A DNA stretch of 64,000 nt, taken from positions 1-64,000 of the forward strand of contig MGUU01000013.1 of NCBI GenBank assembly GCA_001800135.1. The letters run 5' to 3'. Under the pieces are notes generated by a model, which saw only the letters and a list, made by a program, of their open reading frames with translations, was not told the DNA's origin and did no database searches. This document shows, piece by piece, positions 51,182 through 61,694 of this stretch. A program made the position numbers and the translations under genes. The DNA comes from Elusimicrobia bacterium RIFCSPLOWO2_02_FULL_39_32 (GTDB taxonomy: Bacteria; Elusimicrobiota; Elusimicrobia; 2-02-FULL-39-32). The stretch's first letter is position 1. Each line of letters begins with the position of its first letter.

Positions 51182-51211
51182 TTGACAATCTCTCTACAAG
51201 AAATATATAAT
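51182..51211 (+). promoter_or_regulatory. Predicted sigma-70-type promoter of fur
   Basis: TTGACA (51182-51187), 18-bp spacer, TATAAT (51206-51211). Confidence 0.75.
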
Positions 51212-51226
51212 TGAGACTGATTCTCA
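51212..51226 (+). promoter_or_regulatory. Predicted Fur box 1
   Basis: TGAGACTGATTCTCA resembles the 7-1-7 TGATAATNATTATCA consensus; directly after the -10 box; extends to ATTGAGA...TCTCAAT. Confidence 0.75.
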
Positions 51227-51312: not shown

Positions 51313-51750
51313 ATGAAAAGCGAGCCGCATAAAGTTTTTGAACAACTCCTAAATTCAAAAGGGCTTAAAGTTACAAAACAAAGGAATGATATTTTGGATT
51401 ACCTGCTCAAAGCAAAGAAACATGTGACCCCTGAAGATATTTATCGGGACCTGAATAAGAAAGATGCAAACATTGGCAGAGCCACAGTCTTTCGCACCCT
51501 GCATCTCTTAGAAAACGCTGGGTTCGCGGACAAAATCCAATTTGCGGATGGCAGGCTTGCCTACGAGCATAAATTTGCAAGACCGCACCATGATCACATG
51601 ATTTGCGTGGAATGCAGCAGCGTGCTTGAGTTCTCCAATGCCACGATTGAAAAAATACAGGAAGAAATATCTAAAAAATTCATGTTTAAACCTCTTTGGC
51701 ATCGGCATGAGATCTTTGGACGCTGCAAAAAATGCAACAAGATGGATTAA
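51313..51750 (+). CDS. fur: Fur-family ferric uptake regulator
   Basis: 'SKGLKVTKQRNDILDYLLKAKKHVTPEDIYRDLNKKDANIGRATVFRTLHLLENAGFADKI', 'FARPHHDHMICVECSSVLEF', 'FGRCKKC'. Confidence 0.93.
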   Translation: MKSEPHKVFEQLLNSKGLKVTKQRNDILDYLLKAKKHVTPEDIYRDLNKKDANIGRATVFRTLHLLENAGFADKIQFADGRLAYEHKFARPHHDHMICVECSSVLEFSNATIEKIQEEISKKFMFKPLWHRHEIFGRCKKCNKMD

Positions 51751-51751
51751 G

Positions 51752-51766
51752 TGAGATTTAGTCTCA
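51752..51766 (+). promoter_or_regulatory. Predicted Fur box 2
   Basis: TGAGATTTAGTCTCA, very similar to box 1, between the fur stop and the porin-like gene; both boxes are followed by ATAT. Confidence 0.68.
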
Positions 51767-51919
51767 ATATAAAACAAATGAAGGGCTTGAAACAATATGT
51801 TTCACAGATTTGATAAATTTTTTTAAGAGCAAAGGACTTTTAAGTCCAGACTCATCTTGGGCCAGGGCTGGTGAAAAATGCACAACCCAAAGCCAATAAA
51901 TAAGGAAGGAAGAAATAAA

Positions 51920-53110
51920 ATGAAAAAAATAACATCATTGGTTCTCTTAGCTTGGATGGGTTTTTTAATTCCACCAGCTATTTTTGCAGAGGAAAGAAAC
52001 ACGGACAAAAGAGGTGAGATTACAGGACCTATTAGCCAAGGGCTCTACAGCAAACCTGTCTGGAGAAAAATGGGACATGGCACTTATGTTGGAGGATATG
52101 CGGATTTTGAATACCGTTCTAAACAAGACGGGAAACAGAAATTTGAGGTCCTTCGTATGGTTCCATTTATTTACGGGGATATTGCTCCTGGACTACGTTT
52201 TGCAACAGAAATAGAGTTTGAGCATGGCGGAGCCACTACTAAAGATGAGGGAGACGCTAAATTAGAATTTGCTGTATTAGATTATGAACTGGCAGGGGAA
52301 GCGCTTGCGTTTAGAGGCGGTTTGGTACTCATTCCTCTAGGAAAATTTAATCTCATCCATGACTCTCCAATCAATGATCTAAATGATCGCCCACAAGTTA
52401 GCCGGATGATCCTGCCCTCCACTTTTTTTGAGCCTGGAGCCGGATTTTTTGGAACTGTTTACCCAATGGATCCCTTAAAATTGGATTATCAATTTTACCT
52501 TACTCAAGGATTTAATGGCGGATCAAACAAAAACGCGAATATTTCAAGCGCCAATGGATTAAGAAATGCCCGCAGTAAAGTTAATGGAACAGGGGATAAC
52601 AATGAAAATATCGCAATGACGGGCAGAGTGGCATTCTCTCCATTCCTTGGAACTGAAATTGGAGTTTCCGCGCATTCAGGCAAATGGGATGATGCTGGAC
52701 AAGAAAGTCTCAATGTCTATGCTCTAGATTGGGGATTTCAATGGAAAGCGATAGAATTTTTAGGTGAATATGGAAATGCGGACATAGCAAGAACTACCAC
52801 TACCCATACCACTATTCCAGGCAGAATGGATGGCTATTACGCTCAACTAAATGTTCACTTTTTAGATGACGCTGTGCGTAAAGGATCTGTATTTACAGGA
52901 GTAGTGCGATGGGACCATATTGATTTAGATCTTCTTAACCAAACTTCTACTCAAATAAATAACAGCTCTCAAAGACTTACTTTTGGGCTTAATTTTAGGC
53001 CGGTAGAACAAACTGTCTTTAAAATAGATTACCAAATCAACTATGAAGATCTATTGCGCACCAAAAAAGATAATGATGCGGTCGTTGCAGGATTTGCAAC
53101 ATACTTCTAA
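51920..53110 (+). CDS. Porin-like outer membrane beta-barrel protein
   Basis: Signal peptide 'MKKITSLVLLAWMGFLIPPAIFAEE'; 'GGYADFEYRSKQDGKQKFEVLRMVPFIYGDIAPGLRFATEIEFEHGG'; C-terminal 'YF'. Start trimmed from 51878. Confidence 0.75.
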   Translation: MKKITSLVLLAWMGFLIPPAIFAEERNTDKRGEITGPISQGLYSKPVWRKMGHGTYVGGYADFEYRSKQDGKQKFEVLRMVPFIYGDIAPGLRFATEIEFEHGGATTKDEGDAKLEFAVLDYELAGEALAFRGGLVLIPLGKFNLIHDSPINDLNDRPQVSRMILPSTFFEPGAGFFGTVYPMDPLKLDYQFYLTQGFNGGSNKNANISSANGLRNARSKVNGTGDNNENIAMTGRVAFSPFLGTEIGVSAHSGKWDDAGQESLNVYALDWGFQWKAIEFLGEYGNADIARTTTTHTTIPGRMDGYYAQLNVHFLDDAVRKGSVFTGVVRWDHIDLDLLNQTSTQINNSSQRLTFGLNFRPVEQTVFKIDYQINYEDLLRTKKDNDAVVAGFATYF

Positions 53111-53154
53111 CGGATCATGAAAAGCAAGCAAAATCCCTCCTTGGATTGCTTGCA

Positions 53155-53204
53155 TGGTAAGAGCCGTTCCAAGCAAGGCGCCTTGCTTGGAACGGCTCTT
53201 ACCA
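53155..53204. repeat. 50-bp perfect palindrome
   Basis: TGGTAAGAGCCGTTCCAAGCAAGGC|GCCTTGCTTGGAACGGCTCTTACCA, no spacer; a smaller hairpin precedes it at 53124-53153. Confidence 0.97.
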
Positions 53205-53206
53205 AA

Positions 53207-53794
53207 TTGAAAAAAATTTTCTTTTTCTTTAATATTGGATACTTATTTTTATTTGGAGCCCTTAATTTAAGAGCAAAAAGTTTACAAGATCAAGACTATC
53301 CGGATTTCGTAGAACAAGTCTATCTTACAGAACAAACAGCTCTTAAAAGCGTGTTTCCCCAAGATCAAGAGATTGTAAAAGAGATTCATACCTTTAAAAC
53401 AAGCGAAAAAAATAGAATCGAAGCGCGTTTAGGATGGATTCTTCAGGAACCTGACATCACTGTTTATAAAGGCTTAGAAAATGGAAACATCAAAGGTTAT
53501 GCTGTTATTACAGAAGAGATCGGCAAATTTAAACCTATTACTTTTATTGTTAAGGTATCGGATAAAGGTCAAATTGAAAGAGTGGAGGTGATGATCTATA
53601 GAGAACCTGTGGGCACGGAAGTCAGGAGACAAAGGTTCTTAAGACAATTCCGTAAAAAATCAGCAAAAGATTCTCTGCGGATTAATAGAGATATTCTTAA
53701 TATAACCGGAGCAACCATGTCTGTGCAAGCCATGACCGCAGGCATTAAAAAAGTATTAGTTATTCTGGATGAACTCTATATTAAAAAATTTTAA
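53207..53794 (+). CDS. FMN-binding domain protein, exported, putatively flavinylated (track start 53117)
   Basis: 'GNIKGYAVITEEIGKFKPITFIVKVSDKGQIERVEVMIYREPVG' and flavinylation-type motif 'ITGATMS'. TTG at 53207 gives a signal-peptide-like N-terminus (KKIFFFFNIGYLFLFGALNLRAKS). Start uncertain. Confidence 0.85.
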   Translation: MKKIFFFFNIGYLFLFGALNLRAKSLQDQDYPDFVEQVYLTEQTALKSVFPQDQEIVKEIHTFKTSEKNRIEARLGWILQEPDITVYKGLENGNIKGYAVITEEIGKFKPITFIVKVSDKGQIERVEVMIYREPVGTEVRRQRFLRQFRKKSAKDSLRINRDILNITGATMSVQAMTAGIKKVLVILDELYIKKF

Positions 53795-53806: not shown

Positions 53807-54469
53807 ATGAATAAAATCTGGTGGAAAAAAATTCATAATGTCTTTGGAATTTCTAGCGCTCTATTCCTAGTTATTCTCCTAATCACAGGAATGCTATTAA
53901 ATCATCCTAAAAAAATTCAAGGGAACATTATTGAGACCATAGCCTTAGATCCAAAAAAAAGTGAAAGAATCTATTGTGGAAAAAAAGAGGGGCTTTATTT
54001 TTCCAAAGACGCTGGAAAAAATTGGAATGAGGTGCCCATGCTTTATCCTCCACAGGAAGTAGTAGATATTGTTTTTTCCCCGCAAGACTCTAAAAAAATC
54101 TATGTTTTGGAAAAATGGGGAAGAATTATTTTTTCACTGGACGGAGGCAAAATCTGGGATAGAATTGAACTTCCTTTTGACGCGCAATCTGAAGGGATAG
54201 AATTAAAAAAGATTTCAATTGGCAGGAAAGAAGAAATAGCTCTCCTCACCTCCCATGGCTGGATTTTCTCTAAAGATCAGGGAAAAAAATGGGACCAAAC
54301 TTATTTTGATAAAACTAAAACGCCTTTAATGCGCCTAGTATTAACTTTACATAACGGCTACTTCTTTGGACCAGCTTTTGTCTGGGTTTACGATTTTTCC
54401 GCGCTTGCTCTTTTGATCTTAATTATTAGCGGGCTCATTTTATGGTATATCGGCAGAAAAGTTGGATAA
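53807..54469 (+). CDS. PepSY-TM-like membrane protein with Asp-box (BNR/YCF48-like) insert
   Basis: N-terminal 'KKIHNVFGISSALFLVILLITGMLLNHP' and C-terminal 'LTLHNGYFFGPAFVWVYDFSALALLILIISGLILWYIGRK' TM segments; three Asp-box units 'FSKDAGKNWNEV', 'FSLDGGKIWDRI', 'FSKDQGKKWDQT'. Confidence 0.75.
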   Translation: MNKIWWKKIHNVFGISSALFLVILLITGMLLNHPKKIQGNIIETIALDPKKSERIYCGKKEGLYFSKDAGKNWNEVPMLYPPQEVVDIVFSPQDSKKIYVLEKWGRIIFSLDGGKIWDRIELPFDAQSEGIELKKISIGRKEEIALLTSHGWIFSKDQGKKWDQTYFDKTKTPLMRLVLTLHNGYFFGPAFVWVYDFSALALLILIISGLILWYIGRKVG

Positions 54470-54476
54470 TCTTCTT

Positions 54477-55571
54477 ATGACGTTTAGAAAAAAAACTACT
54501 TTTAAAATCTCTCAAAAATGGTTAATAAAAAACTTTAAATTTATTGCCCTTGAGGCCCTATTTTTCTTTAACGTCCCCTGCTTTCTCTTATCATCTGAAT
54601 TGTCAAAAATGAGTTATGTAATGGGAACTTTGTTACAAATTGAACTGGAAACAGATTCGAAAAGAGATGGAGAGAGAGCCATGGAATCCGCGCTTACTCA
54701 AACTGAAGAACTGGATGATCTTCTTTCAAACTATAAGGATAGTTCTGAAATTTCAAAAATTAACAGGGAGGCTGGTACGCAGAGCGTTCCAGTTCATGAA
54801 GAAGTGATTGATTTACTCGCTCAAACCATGCCGCTCATGGATAAGACAAATGGGGCTTTTGACATAACCATTGAACCTCTAACTAAAATCTGGAAACTAA
54901 GAGAAAGAGAGCTAAAAGTTCTGCCTGATCCAGAACTTGTGGCAGGAGAAAAAGAAAAAGTGAATTATAAGAATATAGAATTTTCAACCGCAGCTAAAAC
55001 CTTTCGCTTTCTTAAAGTTGGCATGGGACTAGACACAGGCGGTGTGGGTAAAGGCTATGCTTTGGATAAAGCTTTGAAAAAAATAATGAATCTTGAAATT
55101 AATTCCGCAACTTTAAACTTTGGCGGGGAAATTTTATACTGGTGCAGAACCCCTTGCGAAAAAAATTTTTCCATTAAGGATCCCTTAAATCCTAAAGAAA
55201 GTTGGAAAACTTTTAAGATTAAAAAAAAATCAAAATCTTACGCAATTTCCACCACTGCTAATTATGAAAAATTTATCACTGCTTTCTCCCATGATGGAAA
55301 AAAAATAAAGTATTCTCATATTTTAAATCCTCAAACAGGCTGGCCTGTAAAAAATGAGATTGAAAGCGTCACTGTCCTAGGCAAGAATGCCTTAGATGCC
55401 GACATACTTTCAACAGCGATCTTTGTTATGGGTTTAAAAAAAGGAAAAAAATTTAGCGAGTCGCTTAAACAAGAGGCGGTCTATATTTTATACCGTAATA
55501 AAGAATCTGATAAAAAACTTAAAATTTTTGAATCACGGCTTTGGAAAAAAATATGCATGAAACAACCTTAG
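54477..55571 (+). CDS. apbE: FAD:protein FMN transferase
   Basis: 'MGTLLQIELETDS', 'LDDLLSNYKDSSEISKINREAG', 'GLDTGGVGKGYALDKAL', 'NFGGEILYW', 'SHILNPQTGWPV', 'DADILSTAIFVMG'. Confidence 0.93.
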   Translation: MTFRKKTTFKISQKWLIKNFKFIALEALFFFNVPCFLLSSELSKMSYVMGTLLQIELETDSKRDGERAMESALTQTEELDDLLSNYKDSSEISKINREAGTQSVPVHEEVIDLLAQTMPLMDKTNGAFDITIEPLTKIWKLRERELKVLPDPELVAGEKEKVNYKNIEFSTAAKTFRFLKVGMGLDTGGVGKGYALDKALKKIMNLEINSATLNFGGEILYWCRTPCEKNFSIKDPLNPKESWKTFKIKKKSKSYAISTTANYEKFITAFSHDGKKIKYSHILNPQTGWPVKNEIESVTVLGKNALDADILSTAIFVMGLKKGKKFSESLKQEAVYILYRNKESDKKLKIFESRLWKKICMKQP

Positions 55572-57526
55572 ATAAAGTCGTTGCTAGTCAATCCATTGTT
55601 TTGGTTGGAAACCCGAATGTGGGTAAATCTGTGCTTTTTGGCAAATTAACCGGACGGTATGTCACGGTCTCAAATTATCCGGGAACAACCGTGGATGTTT
55701 CTAGAGGAAGCGGATGGTTTATGGGGCAGCAGCACCAAATAATAGATACCCCTGGGATTCTCTCCCTTTACCCAAAGTCAGAAGATGAAAAAGTCACTAG
55801 AGATCTCCTCATAGAAGAAAGACCCCAAATCATCTTACAAGTAGCTGATGCAAAAAATCTGAACAGAACTCTTCTTCTTACCTTAGAACTTGCTCTCTTA
55901 AAAATCCCCATGGTTTTAGCTTTAAATATCAGCGATGAGGCTAGGGAAAGGGGCATTGAAATCGAAACCGAACTTCTTTCCAAAATTTTAGGAATCCCAG
56001 TGATAGAAACTGTGGGCATTACAGGGGAAGGGATGAGTGACCTAAGGCGCGCAATTCCTAAAGCGCAGGTTCCAACCGTAACAGTCAATCTCCTTTCTGA
56101 AATTAAACAGGCAATAGAGTCTCTTACTTTGCTTTTACCCCCACACCCTGCAAAAGAATTTATCGCTGAAACATTCCTCTATGGGGACTCTTCTATTACA
56201 ATCCCCCTCAGTCATTTTTTAGGAAACTCTCTTTTGTCGTGCCTTAAACAATGTTCGGATCGCTCTCAAATGGTTCGCAAGCGTTTTCTACGACCCATAA
56301 GCCTCCTGACTCTAGATTCAAGGCACCAAAAAGCAGGAGAAATCAGAGCGCAAGTCACTCAATTAACCGGCCAAATCCATTCTTCCTGGATACAAAAAAT
56401 TGGAAAATGGGCCATGCAGCCATGGCCAGGATATTTATTTGTAGCGCTAGCGCTTTTTTTTATGTATGAATTTGTCGGAGTATTTGGAGCCCAATATTTA
56501 GTAGGGCTCATGGAGGAAGGTCTTTTTAACAAAATTTTAAACCCAGCTGTGACTAAAATTGTGGAAATTTCAATTCCAATAAAATTTATTCAGGAGATGA
56601 TCATTGGCCCTTATGGCTTGTTCACCATGGCAATCACATATGCCTTAGCCTTAATTTTTCCGATTGTAACCTGTTTTTTTCTTTTCTTTGGATTCTTAGA
56701 AGACTCTGGATACCTTCCTCGCCTTGCGATCATGCTGGATAGAATTTTCCGCATCATGGGTTTAAACGGTAAAGCTGTGTTGCCCATGATTTTAGGGCTT
56801 GGCTGCGATACCATGGCAACTTTAACTACCCGAGTTCTAGACACGAAAAAAGAAAAAATTATTGTTTGTCTTCTTCTCACTTTAAGTGTGCCCTGTTCCG
56901 CGCAATTAGGAGCGATGCTAGGAATGGTTGCCGGGCTTTCATGGAAAGTATTTGCGATTTGGCTTGGAATTGTGATTGGATCCATGATCCTAGTTGGGTG
57001 GGGAGCTTCTAAACTCCTGCCCGGCATTCGATCTCCATTTTTAATGGAAATTCCCCCAATTCGTAAACCACAATTTTACAATCTTTTTAAAAAAGTGCGG
57101 GCGCGCCTCATCTGGTATGTGCGGGAAGCAGTGCCCATGTTTATGCTGGGAACCTTTATACTTTTTGTTTCGGATAAAATCGGTTTGCTTCGGATTATTA
57201 AAAAATTAGGAAACCCCATTGTTGTCAACTTTCTAGGCCTTCCAGAAAAAGCAACCGAATCTTTTATTATTGGATTTTTAAGGAGGGATTACGGGGCCGC
57301 GGGATTTTTTATGCTTGCGCAAAATGGTTTAATGAATGCGGCTCAAATTACAGTTGCCTTGGTAGTGATTACCCTTTTTATGCCTTGTATCGCACAATTT
57401 TTTGTAACGATCAAAGAGAGAGGATTGAAAACAACCCTTTTGATTGCAGCATTTGTTTTAAGCTTTTCTTTAGGTATCGGCGGTTTAGTCAATTGGATTT
57501 TTAAAGCTGGCTGGATCCAACTTTAA
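55553..57526 (+). CDS. feoB: Ferrous iron transport protein B
   Basis: 'LVGNPNVGKSVLFGKLTGRYVTVSNYPGTTVDVSRG', 'DTPGILSLYP', Gate motifs 'GFLEDSGYLPRLAIMLDRIFRIMGLNGKAVLPMILGLGCDTMAT'. Confidence 0.96.
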   Translation: MHETTLDKVVASQSIVLVGNPNVGKSVLFGKLTGRYVTVSNYPGTTVDVSRGSGWFMGQQHQIIDTPGILSLYPKSEDEKVTRDLLIEERPQIILQVADAKNLNRTLLLTLELALLKIPMVLALNISDEARERGIEIETELLSKILGIPVIETVGITGEGMSDLRRAIPKAQVPTVTVNLLSEIKQAIESLTLLLPPHPAKEFIAETFLYGDSSITIPLSHFLGNSLLSCLKQCSDRSQMVRKRFLRPISLLTLDSRHQKAGEIRAQVTQLTGQIHSSWIQKIGKWAMQPWPGYLFVALALFFMYEFVGVFGAQYLVGLMEEGLFNKILNPAVTKIVEISIPIKFIQEMIIGPYGLFTMAITYALALIFPIVTCFFLFFGFLEDSGYLPRLAIMLDRIFRIMGLNGKAVLPMILGLGCDTMATLTTRVLDTKKEKIIVCLLLTLSVPCSAQLGAMLGMVAGLSWKVFAIWLGIVIGSMILVGWGASKLLPGIRSPFLMEIPPIRKPQFYNLFKKVRARLIWYVREAVPMFMLGTFILFVSDKIGLLRIIKKLGNPIVVNFLGLPEKATESFIIGFLRRDYGAAGFFMLAQNGLMNAAQITVALVVITLFMPCIAQFFVTIKERGLKTTLLIAAFVLSFSLGIGGLVNWIFKAGWIQL

Positions 57527-57575: not shown

Positions 57576-58253
57576 ATGACAACAGAAAAAAAATATCCGC
57601 TTCCCACAAGTGAGCAAGAAAATATTGAAGAAGCCTTAGGAGTACTTTGGCACCAATCTGAACTAATGGAAAATAGGTTAGAAGTTATTCTTCCTCTCTT
57701 AGAAGAAACTGTTAATAAAGAGATATATAAAACCCTTATTTCAAAAGAACTGCTCAAAGAAGAAAATAATAAAATTTTACTTACAGAAAAAGGAGAAAAC
57801 TTAGCAAAAGACATTACCCGTCGTCATCGTCTTGCAGAACGGCTGCTTTCAGATGTACTTGCTTTAAGTTCTCAAGCGATTGATCCCAATGCCTGTAAAT
57901 TGGAACATATTATTTCCACGGAGGTGGCAGAGTCCATATGCACTTTACTAGGCCACCCTACGCAATGCCCCCATGGTTCCCTAATCCCAAAAGGGGATTG
58001 CTGTGAAAAAGCAACTGAAACCATTGAGCCGATTATCACATCCTTGGATAAATGTACGCCAGGTTCAAAAGGAAAAATTGCCTATCTGATCCTGCAAAAC
58101 CATCCAGACCTGCATAAACTCCTTTCTCTTGGGCTGATTCCGGGAACTCCTTTTAACCTTCATCAGACCTTTCCCACTTATGTAATTGAAGCGGGTGAAA
58201 CTACCCTTGCCTTAGAAAAAGAAATTGCGGAAAAAATTTTTGTCCGCCAGTAA
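57576..58253 (+). CDS. DtxR/MntR-family metal-dependent regulator with C-terminal FeoA-like SH3 domain
   Basis: 'RRHRLAERLLSDVL', 'CKLEHIISTEVAESICTLLGHPTQCPHGSLIP', C-terminal 'LLSLGLIPGTPFNLHQTFPTYVIEAGETTLALEKEIAEKIFVR'. Confidence 0.92.
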   Translation: MTTEKKYPLPTSEQENIEEALGVLWHQSELMENRLEVILPLLEETVNKEIYKTLISKELLKEENNKILLTEKGENLAKDITRRHRLAERLLSDVLALSSQAIDPNACKLEHIISTEVAESICTLLGHPTQCPHGSLIPKGDCCEKATETIEPIITSLDKCTPGSKGKIAYLILQNHPDLHKLLSLGLIPGTPFNLHQTFPTYVIEAGETTLALEKEIAEKIFVRQ

Positions 58254-58556: not shown

Positions 58557-58651
58557 ATATTTATATATATACAACTTAATTAAAGCAAAAGATGGGATGG
58601 GTGTGACAAAAATCACATTGACAAATATGGGAGAGGGGGTTATACTTCAAT

Positions 58652-58823: not shown

Positions 58824-61694
58824 ATGAAAAAATTAAATTCAATTCTTTTTTATTTTTTGGTAGGGATGACTCTACTTGCCCTACCCTCTAATCAGAAACT
58901 CTATGCTGAGCCTGTAGATAATCTTCGACATACTCTAATTAGTTCAGATACCCTTACTCTGCAATGGCAAAATCAAGGTGGAAAATCATATGTGGTAGTT
59001 CTTTCTTCAGTTCCTGGATTTTCAACTGTTATTTCTTCCAAAACAAGCGGTAAAAATCAGCACACGACCTCATTTTACGAACTGCAGCCCAATACTTCTT
59101 ATACTACGTTTGTTAAAGTTTCAGTGGACCCGGATTCAAATTACGTTGCTTTATCTACTTACACCTATCCAGTCTCTCCAGGTTTAACTGAATTTCAAAT
59201 CTTTACTACTTCAGCTTCATTTAATCTTCACAGCGGTTTAAATAACCTCTTAGGCATCTCTGGATCAGCCACCTCTTTAACTCTAGATATCTCTACAGGA
59301 AACAGTGAAGACTTTAATATCTCATTGTCCTCAAGCGGGAAAGCGATCGCCACAAATACCACATTGGTTCTTTCTGAATTGATCCCGAACACTAACTATG
59401 CCTTTCAAGCTAGAGCAACTGGCTTCACAAATTTTTCTAGTTCCGCAACGACCGTTATTACATCTACCACCACTTTGGCGCAACCTCCAACTTTAACAGG
59501 GTTCAAAGTCTTCTCAACTTCCATTTCTATTATCTTAGGCAATAACAGCAATCCCATTGGCACAACTCTTATGGTTTCTACTGGCTCTGATGGAAATTAT
59601 AATGTCAATCACTCTTTAATTAGCAGCGTTTCAGGAGAAAATACGACCCTTACAATTTCTGATCTAAGTCCACAAACCGCTTACAGCTTTCAAGCCGCAG
59701 TCTTGGGCAGCGCAGAAAATGCATCTACTCAGACGATTAGTGTAACTGATTCTACAACCACTTACGCTGCAGTTCCTGGCACGAATTTTTTTAATAATGT
59801 ATATAGCACCTCCTTTACTGTAAGCTGGGGTACTAACGGTAACCCTCTCATCCCTCCAACAACCTATGAACTTTATATTTCAACAGCAAATGATTTTTCC
59901 TCATTTTTAACCCACCTAACTACTTCAACACAAAATACATTTATCGGCCTCATTCCAAACACTGCTTACTTCTTCAAAACAGCTGCATTCAGCAAAAATG
60001 GGGAGTTAAGTGGTTTCAATCCAGAAATTTCTACTATCACATCACCATCTAACTTAACGCCTGCTGGACCTGGGAATTTTAAAGTAACAGCTATTGGGAT
60101 TTCAAGCATTACTTTTTCCTGGAGCGATAACTCTGAAAATGAAGAACAATTTAGAATTTTAAATTCTACAAACGGTTTTTATGCGACCCTGCCAGCAAAT
60201 ACCACATCATTCTCTCTCACAGGCCTTTCTCCAAACCAATTTATTCAAGCAAGAATTTCTGCCTTTAACAGTATGGGAAGTTCTACAAATACTGTTGCCA
60301 TCAGCAGCCATACGCTCGCTGCTCCTCCTGACAATTTAATTCTAATAAATGTCAGAAGAAAAAAAATCACGCTTTCTTGGAACTCGAATTCTAATCCATC
60401 TACGGTCATCTATGAAATAAGCCAGTCTAAAGATAATTTCAGTTCCCAAATTTCAACCCCAATTTCATTTTCCTTATTGTCATCCACTTCTTCCGCTTCT
60501 GTTTCAAACTTAACTCCAGGAGGAACCTACTATTTTAGAGTGCGCGCGCAAAATAACGATGGAACAGCTACTTCTTTCAGTAATATCATAAGCACTCAAA
60601 CTCTTCTAACAGAAACCATCATCACATCCAATGAGAGTGACGATTCCGGAGATATATCTCTCACAGCAGACCCTGGGATCACTATTACCAACAACACTCT
60701 TGCGGATGGAAGAACAGAACAGATTTTTGTTGCCACACAATCCGCTAGAGTTTCTTATTCAAATGGGATTCAACTCCAACTGCCCATGGGCTCAAAAACA
60801 ACTATAATCGCATCCAAAAATTCTTTACAAATCACAAGCACCCAAACCATTCCAATGGAACATGATGGAATCAATATGGATTTGCCTTCAGGAAGCCACA
60901 TTTTTCAAATCTCTCTAAACTCCTTTACTCTTGACTTGGATCCCTCAATTCCTCAAATTACCAAAGCCACACTTTCCACTGAAAGAACTAAAACGCTTTT
61001 GATCGGACTAGAGCTGCCTCAAGGCAAACTTAAAACTTCAATTCCACCTAATATCATGAAAGAAAATGTAGAGATGGAAATAAAAGCTCTAGATCAATTT
61101 CCTCCGATTACTTCTTTTGCCTCTCCTTTGTTTGGTCAAAGCCTTTTAAAAGCTCCATCTACATTAAAAGCTTTAGGAATAGGTCTTGAATTAAATACCA
61201 ACAAAAACATTCAACCCTCTCAACCAATTGAAATCACTTTCCAATATCGCAGTCAAGATATCACAGGCACTGACCCAGAAACTTTGGTGATTACCCGCTA
61301 TGAAGATTCAGTTCAAAGATGGCTTACTATTCCCAGTGTTATAAATCATTCCTCACAAACAGTTACAGGGACTGCAAAACACTTAAGCAAATTCCAATTA
61401 ATGGCTTTAGCTCCGTCCACAGATATTGATCACCCGCAAGTCTATCCTAACCCTTTGCGTTTGCATAAAGGCCAAACAGAAATGACCTTTACAAATTTAA
61501 CTGCTCATTCCACCATCAAAATTTATACCTACGCGGGAGAGCTGGTTCGGGAATTAAAAACAGATTCTACCGGAACCATTCGCTGGGACGCTAAAAATTC
61601 TTATGGCGAAAAAGTAGGAAGCGACATTTATATTGTCTTGATTGAAGGCATTGGTAATGCAAGAAAGAAAATGAAAATAGCAGTAGAGAAATAA
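58824..61694 (+). CDS. Secreted multi-fibronectin-III protein with C-terminal FlgD-like/T9SS-CTD-like domain
   Basis: Signal peptide; repeated FN3 motifs such as 'LTLQWQNQGGKSYVVVLSS...LQPNTSYTTFVKV', 'ITFSWSDNSENEEQFRI', 'LTPGGTYYFRVRAQNNDG'; C-terminal 'VYPNPLRLHKGQTEMTFTNLTAHSTIKIYTYAGELVRELKTDSTGTIRWDAKNSYGEKVGSDIYIVLIEG'. Confidence 0.85.
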   Translation: MKKLNSILFYFLVGMTLLALPSNQKLYAEPVDNLRHTLISSDTLTLQWQNQGGKSYVVVLSSVPGFSTVISSKTSGKNQHTTSFYELQPNTSYTTFVKVSVDPDSNYVALSTYTYPVSPGLTEFQIFTTSASFNLHSGLNNLLGISGSATSLTLDISTGNSEDFNISLSSSGKAIATNTTLVLSELIPNTNYAFQARATGFTNFSSSATTVITSTTTLAQPPTLTGFKVFSTSISIILGNNSNPIGTTLMVSTGSDGNYNVNHSLISSVSGENTTLTISDLSPQTAYSFQAAVLGSAENASTQTISVTDSTTTYAAVPGTNFFNNVYSTSFTVSWGTNGNPLIPPTTYELYISTANDFSSFLTHLTTSTQNTFIGLIPNTAYFFKTAAFSKNGELSGFNPEISTITSPSNLTPAGPGNFKVTAIGISSITFSWSDNSENEEQFRILNSTNGFYATLPANTTSFSLTGLSPNQFIQARISAFNSMGSSTNTVAISSHTLAAPPDNLILINVRRKKITLSWNSNSNPSTVIYEISQSKDNFSSQISTPISFSLLSSTSSASVSNLTPGGTYYFRVRAQNNDGTATSFSNIISTQTLLTETIITSNESDDSGDISLTADPGITITNNTLADGRTEQIFVATQSARVSYSNGIQLQLPMGSKTTIIASKNSLQITSTQTIPMEHDGINMDLPSGSHIFQISLNSFTLDLDPSIPQITKATLSTERTKTLLIGLELPQGKLKTSIPPNIMKENVEMEIKALDQFPPITSFASPLFGQSLLKAPSTLKALGIGLELNTNKNIQPSQPIEITFQYRSQDITGTDPETLVITRYEDSVQRWLTIPSVINHSSQTVTGTAKHLSKFQLMALAPSTDIDHPQVYPNPLRLHKGQTEMTFTNLTAHSTIKIYTYAGELVRELKTDSTGTIRWDAKNSYGEKVGSDIYIVLIEGIGNARKKMKIAVEK

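Follow-up and report, generated by a model that had tools for sequence, protein, structure and literature searches.

The window analysed here, a stretch of 64 kb, contains a gene for a 220-residue protein in which two transmembrane (TM) segments of the PepSY_TM kind enclose three blades of an Asp-box β-propeller. We consider it likely that this protein belongs to the PepSY_TM cytochrome superfamily in a half-length form and acts in reductive iron uptake as a homodimeric b-type cytochrome. The strongest clue to its function is the gene cluster in which it lies, which is absent from the first-pass annotation of this DNA. The layout of the protein is as follows.

53807..54469, + strand: PepSY_TM-like protein with two TM segments around three Asp-box blades, 220 residues, ATG start (ORF, Pfam, predicted model, blade model)
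53828..53908, + strand: TM helix 1, residues 8–34, with His10 and a TG motif (hydropathy, motif check)
53927..54052, + strand: blade 1, residues 41–82, Asp-box at 66–73 (SKDAGKNW)
54056..54181, + strand: blade 2, residues 84–125, Asp-box at 110–117 (SLDGGKIW)
54197..54313, + strand: blade 3, residues 131–169, Asp-box at 155–162 (SKDQGKKW)
54350..54352, + strand: codon of His182 (LHNG), invariant candidate ligand of a periplasmic-side haem
54362..54454, + strand: TM helix 2, residues 186–216, with an SG motif (hydropathy, motif check)

The two TM segments found by hydropathy (about 8–34 and about 186–216) have Lys or Arg at both ends, so that the N and C termini are probably cytoplasmic; the same charge pattern places the hydrophilic insert, probably, in the periplasm. 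That both segments are PepSY-associated helices, as the first-pass annotation had it, is supported by Pfam, where PepSY_TM matches residues 3–214 to profile positions 174–293 at 60.2 bits (cut-off 28.8). In PepSY_TM proteins, a His precedes each TM helix and an (S/T)G lies close to the C-terminus of the helix (PMC10866019). Both segments carry this signature, H10...TG and H182...SG. A canonical relative encoded in genome G239 (L026) has four His...TG segments and a PepSY motif; FoxB-type proteins have at least four TM helices per chain, and the 220-residue protein has two by hydropathy.

The insert is of another kind. The PepSY motif hDhxxG is absent from the protein, and the same motif check finds it in two canonical PepSY proteins, L026 and L025. 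Further Pfam matches, all above curated cut-offs, are to Sortilin-Vps10 (46.8 bits), PepSY_TM_like_2 (40.9) and PSII_BNR (30.1). The domain search and the AlphaFold monomer, both proposed in the first-pass annotation, agree with it: Pfam places the TM part in PepSY_TM and the insert in Sortilin/PSII_BNR, and the model displays a propeller-like domain in place of the PepSY domain. The three Asp-box units reported earlier are where they were expected, between the TM segments; when residues 41–170 were shuffled 200,000 times, no shuffle contained even two. The model was built on two sequences and has a mean pLDDT of 68. It consists of two long helices and three antiparallel four-stranded blades with pLDDT near 80 (strands 44–66, 85–121 and 133–166), and its confidence is poor at the TM junctions, residues 28–42 and 166–197. 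Foldseek matches the model best to parts of Asp-box propellers in the PDB, namely GH74, Ycf48, sortilin and DAIP. A closed Asp-box β-propeller has a complete ring of blades in one chain. Three blades do not make such a ring, in keeping with the earlier remark that three units are too few.

Close homologues occur in seven genomes of one family among the 341 genomes of the phylum searched, with 52–91% identity to the 220-residue protein where measured. Three more distant genomes of the same set (G218, G210 and G281) have two-TM relatives at about 25% identity. A pattern search of GTDB contigs gave only one very near relative, on the near-identical JACPBF010000004.1 of an Elusimicrobia MAG. A blade model was built from five family members, with a sixth, L081, kept out of the building; it finds exactly three blades in each of the six. 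It further detects one clear Asp-box unit in L008 (17.6 bits) and in L011 (17.7 bits), shuffles reaching at most 0.6, and a weak unit in L012 (3.3 bits); L011 also matches Beta-prop_HVO_0234 in Pfam just above the cut-off. The number of blades per half may differ between lineages, three here and perhaps four in L008, L011 and L012.

Several candidates were set aside. The long BNR/GH74-like proteins of other genomes cover the insert and not both TM segments, and the multi-blade protein of G213, in its full sequence, has no TM frame. Against a plain sialidase/BNR enzyme speak the blade count of three and the absence of any BNR_2 match that passes the Pfam cut-off. The protein is not a Ycf48 orthologue, with 23.3 bits to NF010237 (NCBIfam) against an equivalog cut-off of 326.

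Alignment of 13 halves shows which His residues are kept. His182 is invariant, even where the blades have diverged, and His10 is found in all except the truncated L081. The claim of conserved His residues therefore holds for His10 and His182, kept in all full-length relatives, and fails for His33 ("NHP"), which is not invariant. A fourth residue, His150 in the third blade, is not conserved. The earlier reading is refined in two points: His10 and His182, not His33, are the candidates for haem ligation, and the protein resembles one half of a PepSY_TM protein of the usual four-helix type, its outer domain swapped for three propeller blades.

Outside Elusimicrobiota, where relatives were drawn from plasmid records only and sampling is sparse, two Bacteroidota proteins have two TM-insert-TM halves in one chain:

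L077:5950-7512: four-TM PepSY_TM protein of 520 residues, Persicobacter sp. JZB09 plasmid
L082:4983-6428: four-TM PepSY_TM protein of 481 residues, Prevotella sp. oral taxon 299

Both have a clear PepSY_TM match and no PepSY domain recognisable by Pfam. Their inserts are likewise unrecognised by Pfam, and an Asp-box-like unit is seen only in the first half of L077, so that a propeller nature of these inserts is only suggested. The Persicobacter gene adjoins genes for an Rrf2-type regulator and a Ric/YtfE-like protein, and the Prevotella gene adjoins a TonB receptor gene.

The two-TM gene is the fourth in a cluster with the order fur, porin-like gene, FMN_bind gene, two-TM propeller gene, apbE, feoB and dtxR-feoA, all on one strand with short gaps. 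The cluster and its control sites are as follows.

51182..51211, + strand: sigma-70-type promoter upstream of fur, TTGACA-18-TATAAT, 12/12 consensus positions
51212..51226, + strand: Fur-box-like palindrome TGAGACTGATTCTCA, directly 3′ of the -10 hexamer
51313..51750, + strand: fur, Fur-family regulator (Pfam FUR, 124 bits)
51752..51766, + strand: second Fur-box-like palindrome TGAGATTTAGTCTCA, 3′ of fur and 5′ of the porin-like gene
51878..53110, + strand: putative porin-like protein with a signal peptide
53117..53794, + strand: periplasmic FMN_bind (RnfG-like) protein (Pfam FMN_bind, 33.6 bits)
54477..55571, + strand: apbE, FAD:protein FMN transferase; ORF open from TTG 54462 (Pfam ApbE, 219.5 bits)
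55553..57526, + strand: feoB, ferrous iron transporter; ORF open from TTG 55541 (TIGR00437, 381 bits, above cut-off)
57576..58253, + strand: DtxR/MntR-type iron repressor with a C-terminal FeoA domain (Pfam Fe_dep_repr_C and FeoA)

Seven related genomes show the cluster, with protein identities as low as 52%. Its order is kept in G053, G239 and G271, and in G280, G296 and G298 as far as the contigs reach; the FMN_bind gene and apbE immediately flank the two-TM gene in the close family wherever the contig shows them. The TGAT flavinylation motif is invariant in the FMN_bind protein (6/6). In G271 the apbE homologue (L042:8776-9752) is split into two ORFs of 188 and 98 residues, perhaps by a frameshift or an assembly error. 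The porin-like gene more likely starts at 51920, where Met15 is conserved and is preceded by AAGGAAGG. Its product has no match in Pfam, NCBIfam or the PDB, a search of the PDB with the family profile included, and a model predicted from one sequence has a pLDDT of 33. The porin-like family extends from the window to G218 (27%) and is linked to the FMN_bind gene and apbE wherever the contig shows them.

The promoter and the two palindromes suggest that the cluster is under iron control. At no more than one mismatch, the two Fur-box-like palindromes are the only ones in the 64 kb, against 0.23 expected, and similar palindromes are seen by eye at the fur promoter of G053, G239 and G271.

Distant relatives of the two-TM gene adjoin TonB receptors or dtxR/feoB genes. 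In G218 (L043, 10130–19020) the relative follows a TonB receptor gene, and the FMN_bind, porin-like and apbE homologues are grouped about 5 kb away; this separate grouping indicates that the two-TM and flavin/porin modules can come apart. G239 holds, besides the two-TM propeller form, its canonical four-TM PepSY gene (L026:1309-2607) next to a TonB-receptor-like gene. In the genome of the window, no PF00593 TonB receptor is found by a search that was positive in the controls E. coli, Caulobacter and Bacteroides. Genes for ferrochelatase and for haem-copper oxidase (COX1) are present.

We propose the following scheme. Two copies of the protein would each contribute two helices to a four-helix bundle like that of FoxB. 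The two His10 residues would hold one haem b on the cytoplasmic side, and the two His182 residues another on the periplasmic side. In FoxB there are two haems, each held between two conserved His residues (PMC11334425, PMC13038864). CrpH depends for its function on its two periplasmic-side His residues, H200 and H444 (PMC13038864), whose positions suggest that they correspond to the LHxG His in either half, here His182. With only one LHxG His per chain, a haem held by two of them requires a dimer of the two-TM protein. With two conserved His per chain, two bis-His haems can form only in a dimer. In FezC, haem sites do arise through homodimerisation (PMC11334425), which sets a precedent. The role of His10 as a haem ligand is assigned by analogy. 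We also count in favour of this explanation the Bacteroidota relatives, in which two such halves are joined in one chain, and the lack of a PF00593 receptor in a genome that has ferrochelatase and COX1.

Electrons would enter from the membrane, probably from quinol, cross it through the haems, and pass to the FMN that ApbE would attach to the FMN_bind protein. The flavin would reduce Fe(III) admitted through the porin-like protein, and FeoB would import the resulting Fe(II). The first and the last of these steps are suggested by the neighbouring genes and by knowledge of the families. Iron reduction and assimilation have been argued for flavinylation clusters with PepSY-like proteins (Meheust et al. 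2021, PMC8238504). Within this scheme, the Asp-box blades would take over from PepSY domains as the periplasmic platform for docking or for the substrate, and the 2 x 3 blades of the dimer could close into one six-bladed propeller. We put forward only tentatively, and hold somewhat less probable than its contrary, the full arrangement in which one homodimer combines a di-haem four-helix cytochrome with a closed six-bladed propeller, the cavity above the periplasmic haem being a docking or reduction chamber.

The two-TM protein could instead itself reduce Fe(III) chelates, in the manner of FoxB. The chelate would then be bound on the blades, and the FMN_bind protein would not be the acceptor but a carrier working in parallel or upstream. 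For PepSY_TM proteins of the FoxB and FhuB types, ferrisiderophore reduction takes place in a periplasmic cavity (PMC10866019), XusB β-propellers bind ferric siderophores in Bacteroides (PMC13142918), and distant two-TM relatives lie beside TonB receptors with no adjacent FMN_bind gene. However, the immediate neighbours in the close family are the FMN_bind gene and apbE, and siderophore import is unlikely in a genome with no PF00593 TonB receptor, so that we regard direct reduction as unlikely here. Less probable by a good measure is an assembly or anchoring factor that carries no electrons, with blades that, like Ycf48, hold the FMN_bind protein (or ApbE in flavin transfer) at the membrane. 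The blades are closest in sequence and fold to those of Ycf48/HCF136, GH74 and sortilin, a group in which several members act in binding or assembly. The PepSY_TM signature of His and (S/T)G, however, is present in both TM segments, and His182 is invariant over diverged blades; a mere anchor would need neither. By analogy with CrpH, a PepSY_TM protein linked to copper (PMC13038864), the protein could be a periplasmic reductase of a metal other than iron, such as copper, but feoB, fur, dtxR-feoA and the Fur-box-like sites of the same cluster point to iron and make this very improbable.

The proposed half-length cytochrome can be compared with known systems. It shares with the FoxB/FhuB/HiuB-type ferrisiderophore reductases (PF03929) the TM signature, a periplasmic domain between paired helices and an iron-acquisition setting, and the Fur-box-like sites recall the Fur control of hiuABC. 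It differs from them in having two TM helices where they have four and Asp-box blades where they have PepSY domains, in its FMN_bind and ApbE partners, and in the lack of a TonB receptor. The PepSY-like flavinylation systems (PMC8238504) are closer in setting, with a PF03929/PF16357 protein clustered with apbE and a flavinylated protein and a link to iron assimilation and Fur. The association by which they are recognised, a PF03929/PF16357 gene with apbE or a flavinylated protein, is found here, with the FMN_bind gene and apbE adjacent and conserved. Their frequent but not obligatory partners DUF2271 and DUF4198 are not found by Pfam among the seven cluster genes; here the partner is RnfG-like FMN_bind, and feoB stands in place of VIT1. 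Those systems have three TM helices, whereas the present protein has two and a propeller insert. FezC and MsrQ (PMC11334425) are also small membrane proteins of flavin- or iron-related systems with haem sites made through homodimerisation (haem and dimer being predicted here), but they belong to other TM families and have no propeller insert. The Ycf48/HCF136, GH74 and sortilin propellers resemble the insert in blade sequence and fold; theirs are complete propellers in one chain, in contrast to three blades between two TM helices. The Bacteroidota proteins L077 and L082 share the TM signature and the lack of a recognised PepSY domain, but have both halves in one chain.

Flavin-linked PepSY iron systems have already been described, and the role of the two-TM protein is thus of a known kind. 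A search of the literature, which took in few subscription journals, did not turn up the half-size PepSY_TM form with three propeller blades; papers that name PepSY, propeller and reductase together, where examined, concern separate proteins. Automatic annotation in databases probably lists both the PepSY_TM and the propeller domains. If the proposal is correct, PepSY_TM reductases can keep their haem-bearing membrane part and replace the periplasmic module by one of unrelated fold, and the minimal PepSY_TM unit is a two-helix half. The dimer prediction bears on how half-length and full-length PepSY_TM proteins are related. The proposal would also mean that a poorly studied phylum has a TonB-independent route of iron uptake made up of porin, flavin, cytochrome and FeoB.

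Downstream of the cluster, a near-perfect promoter-like site, TTGACA-17-TATACT at 58618–58646, lies ahead of an ORF (58824–61694) for a 956-residue secreted-type protein, in which fibronectin-III-like repeats and a C-terminal FlgD-like segment are seen by eye.
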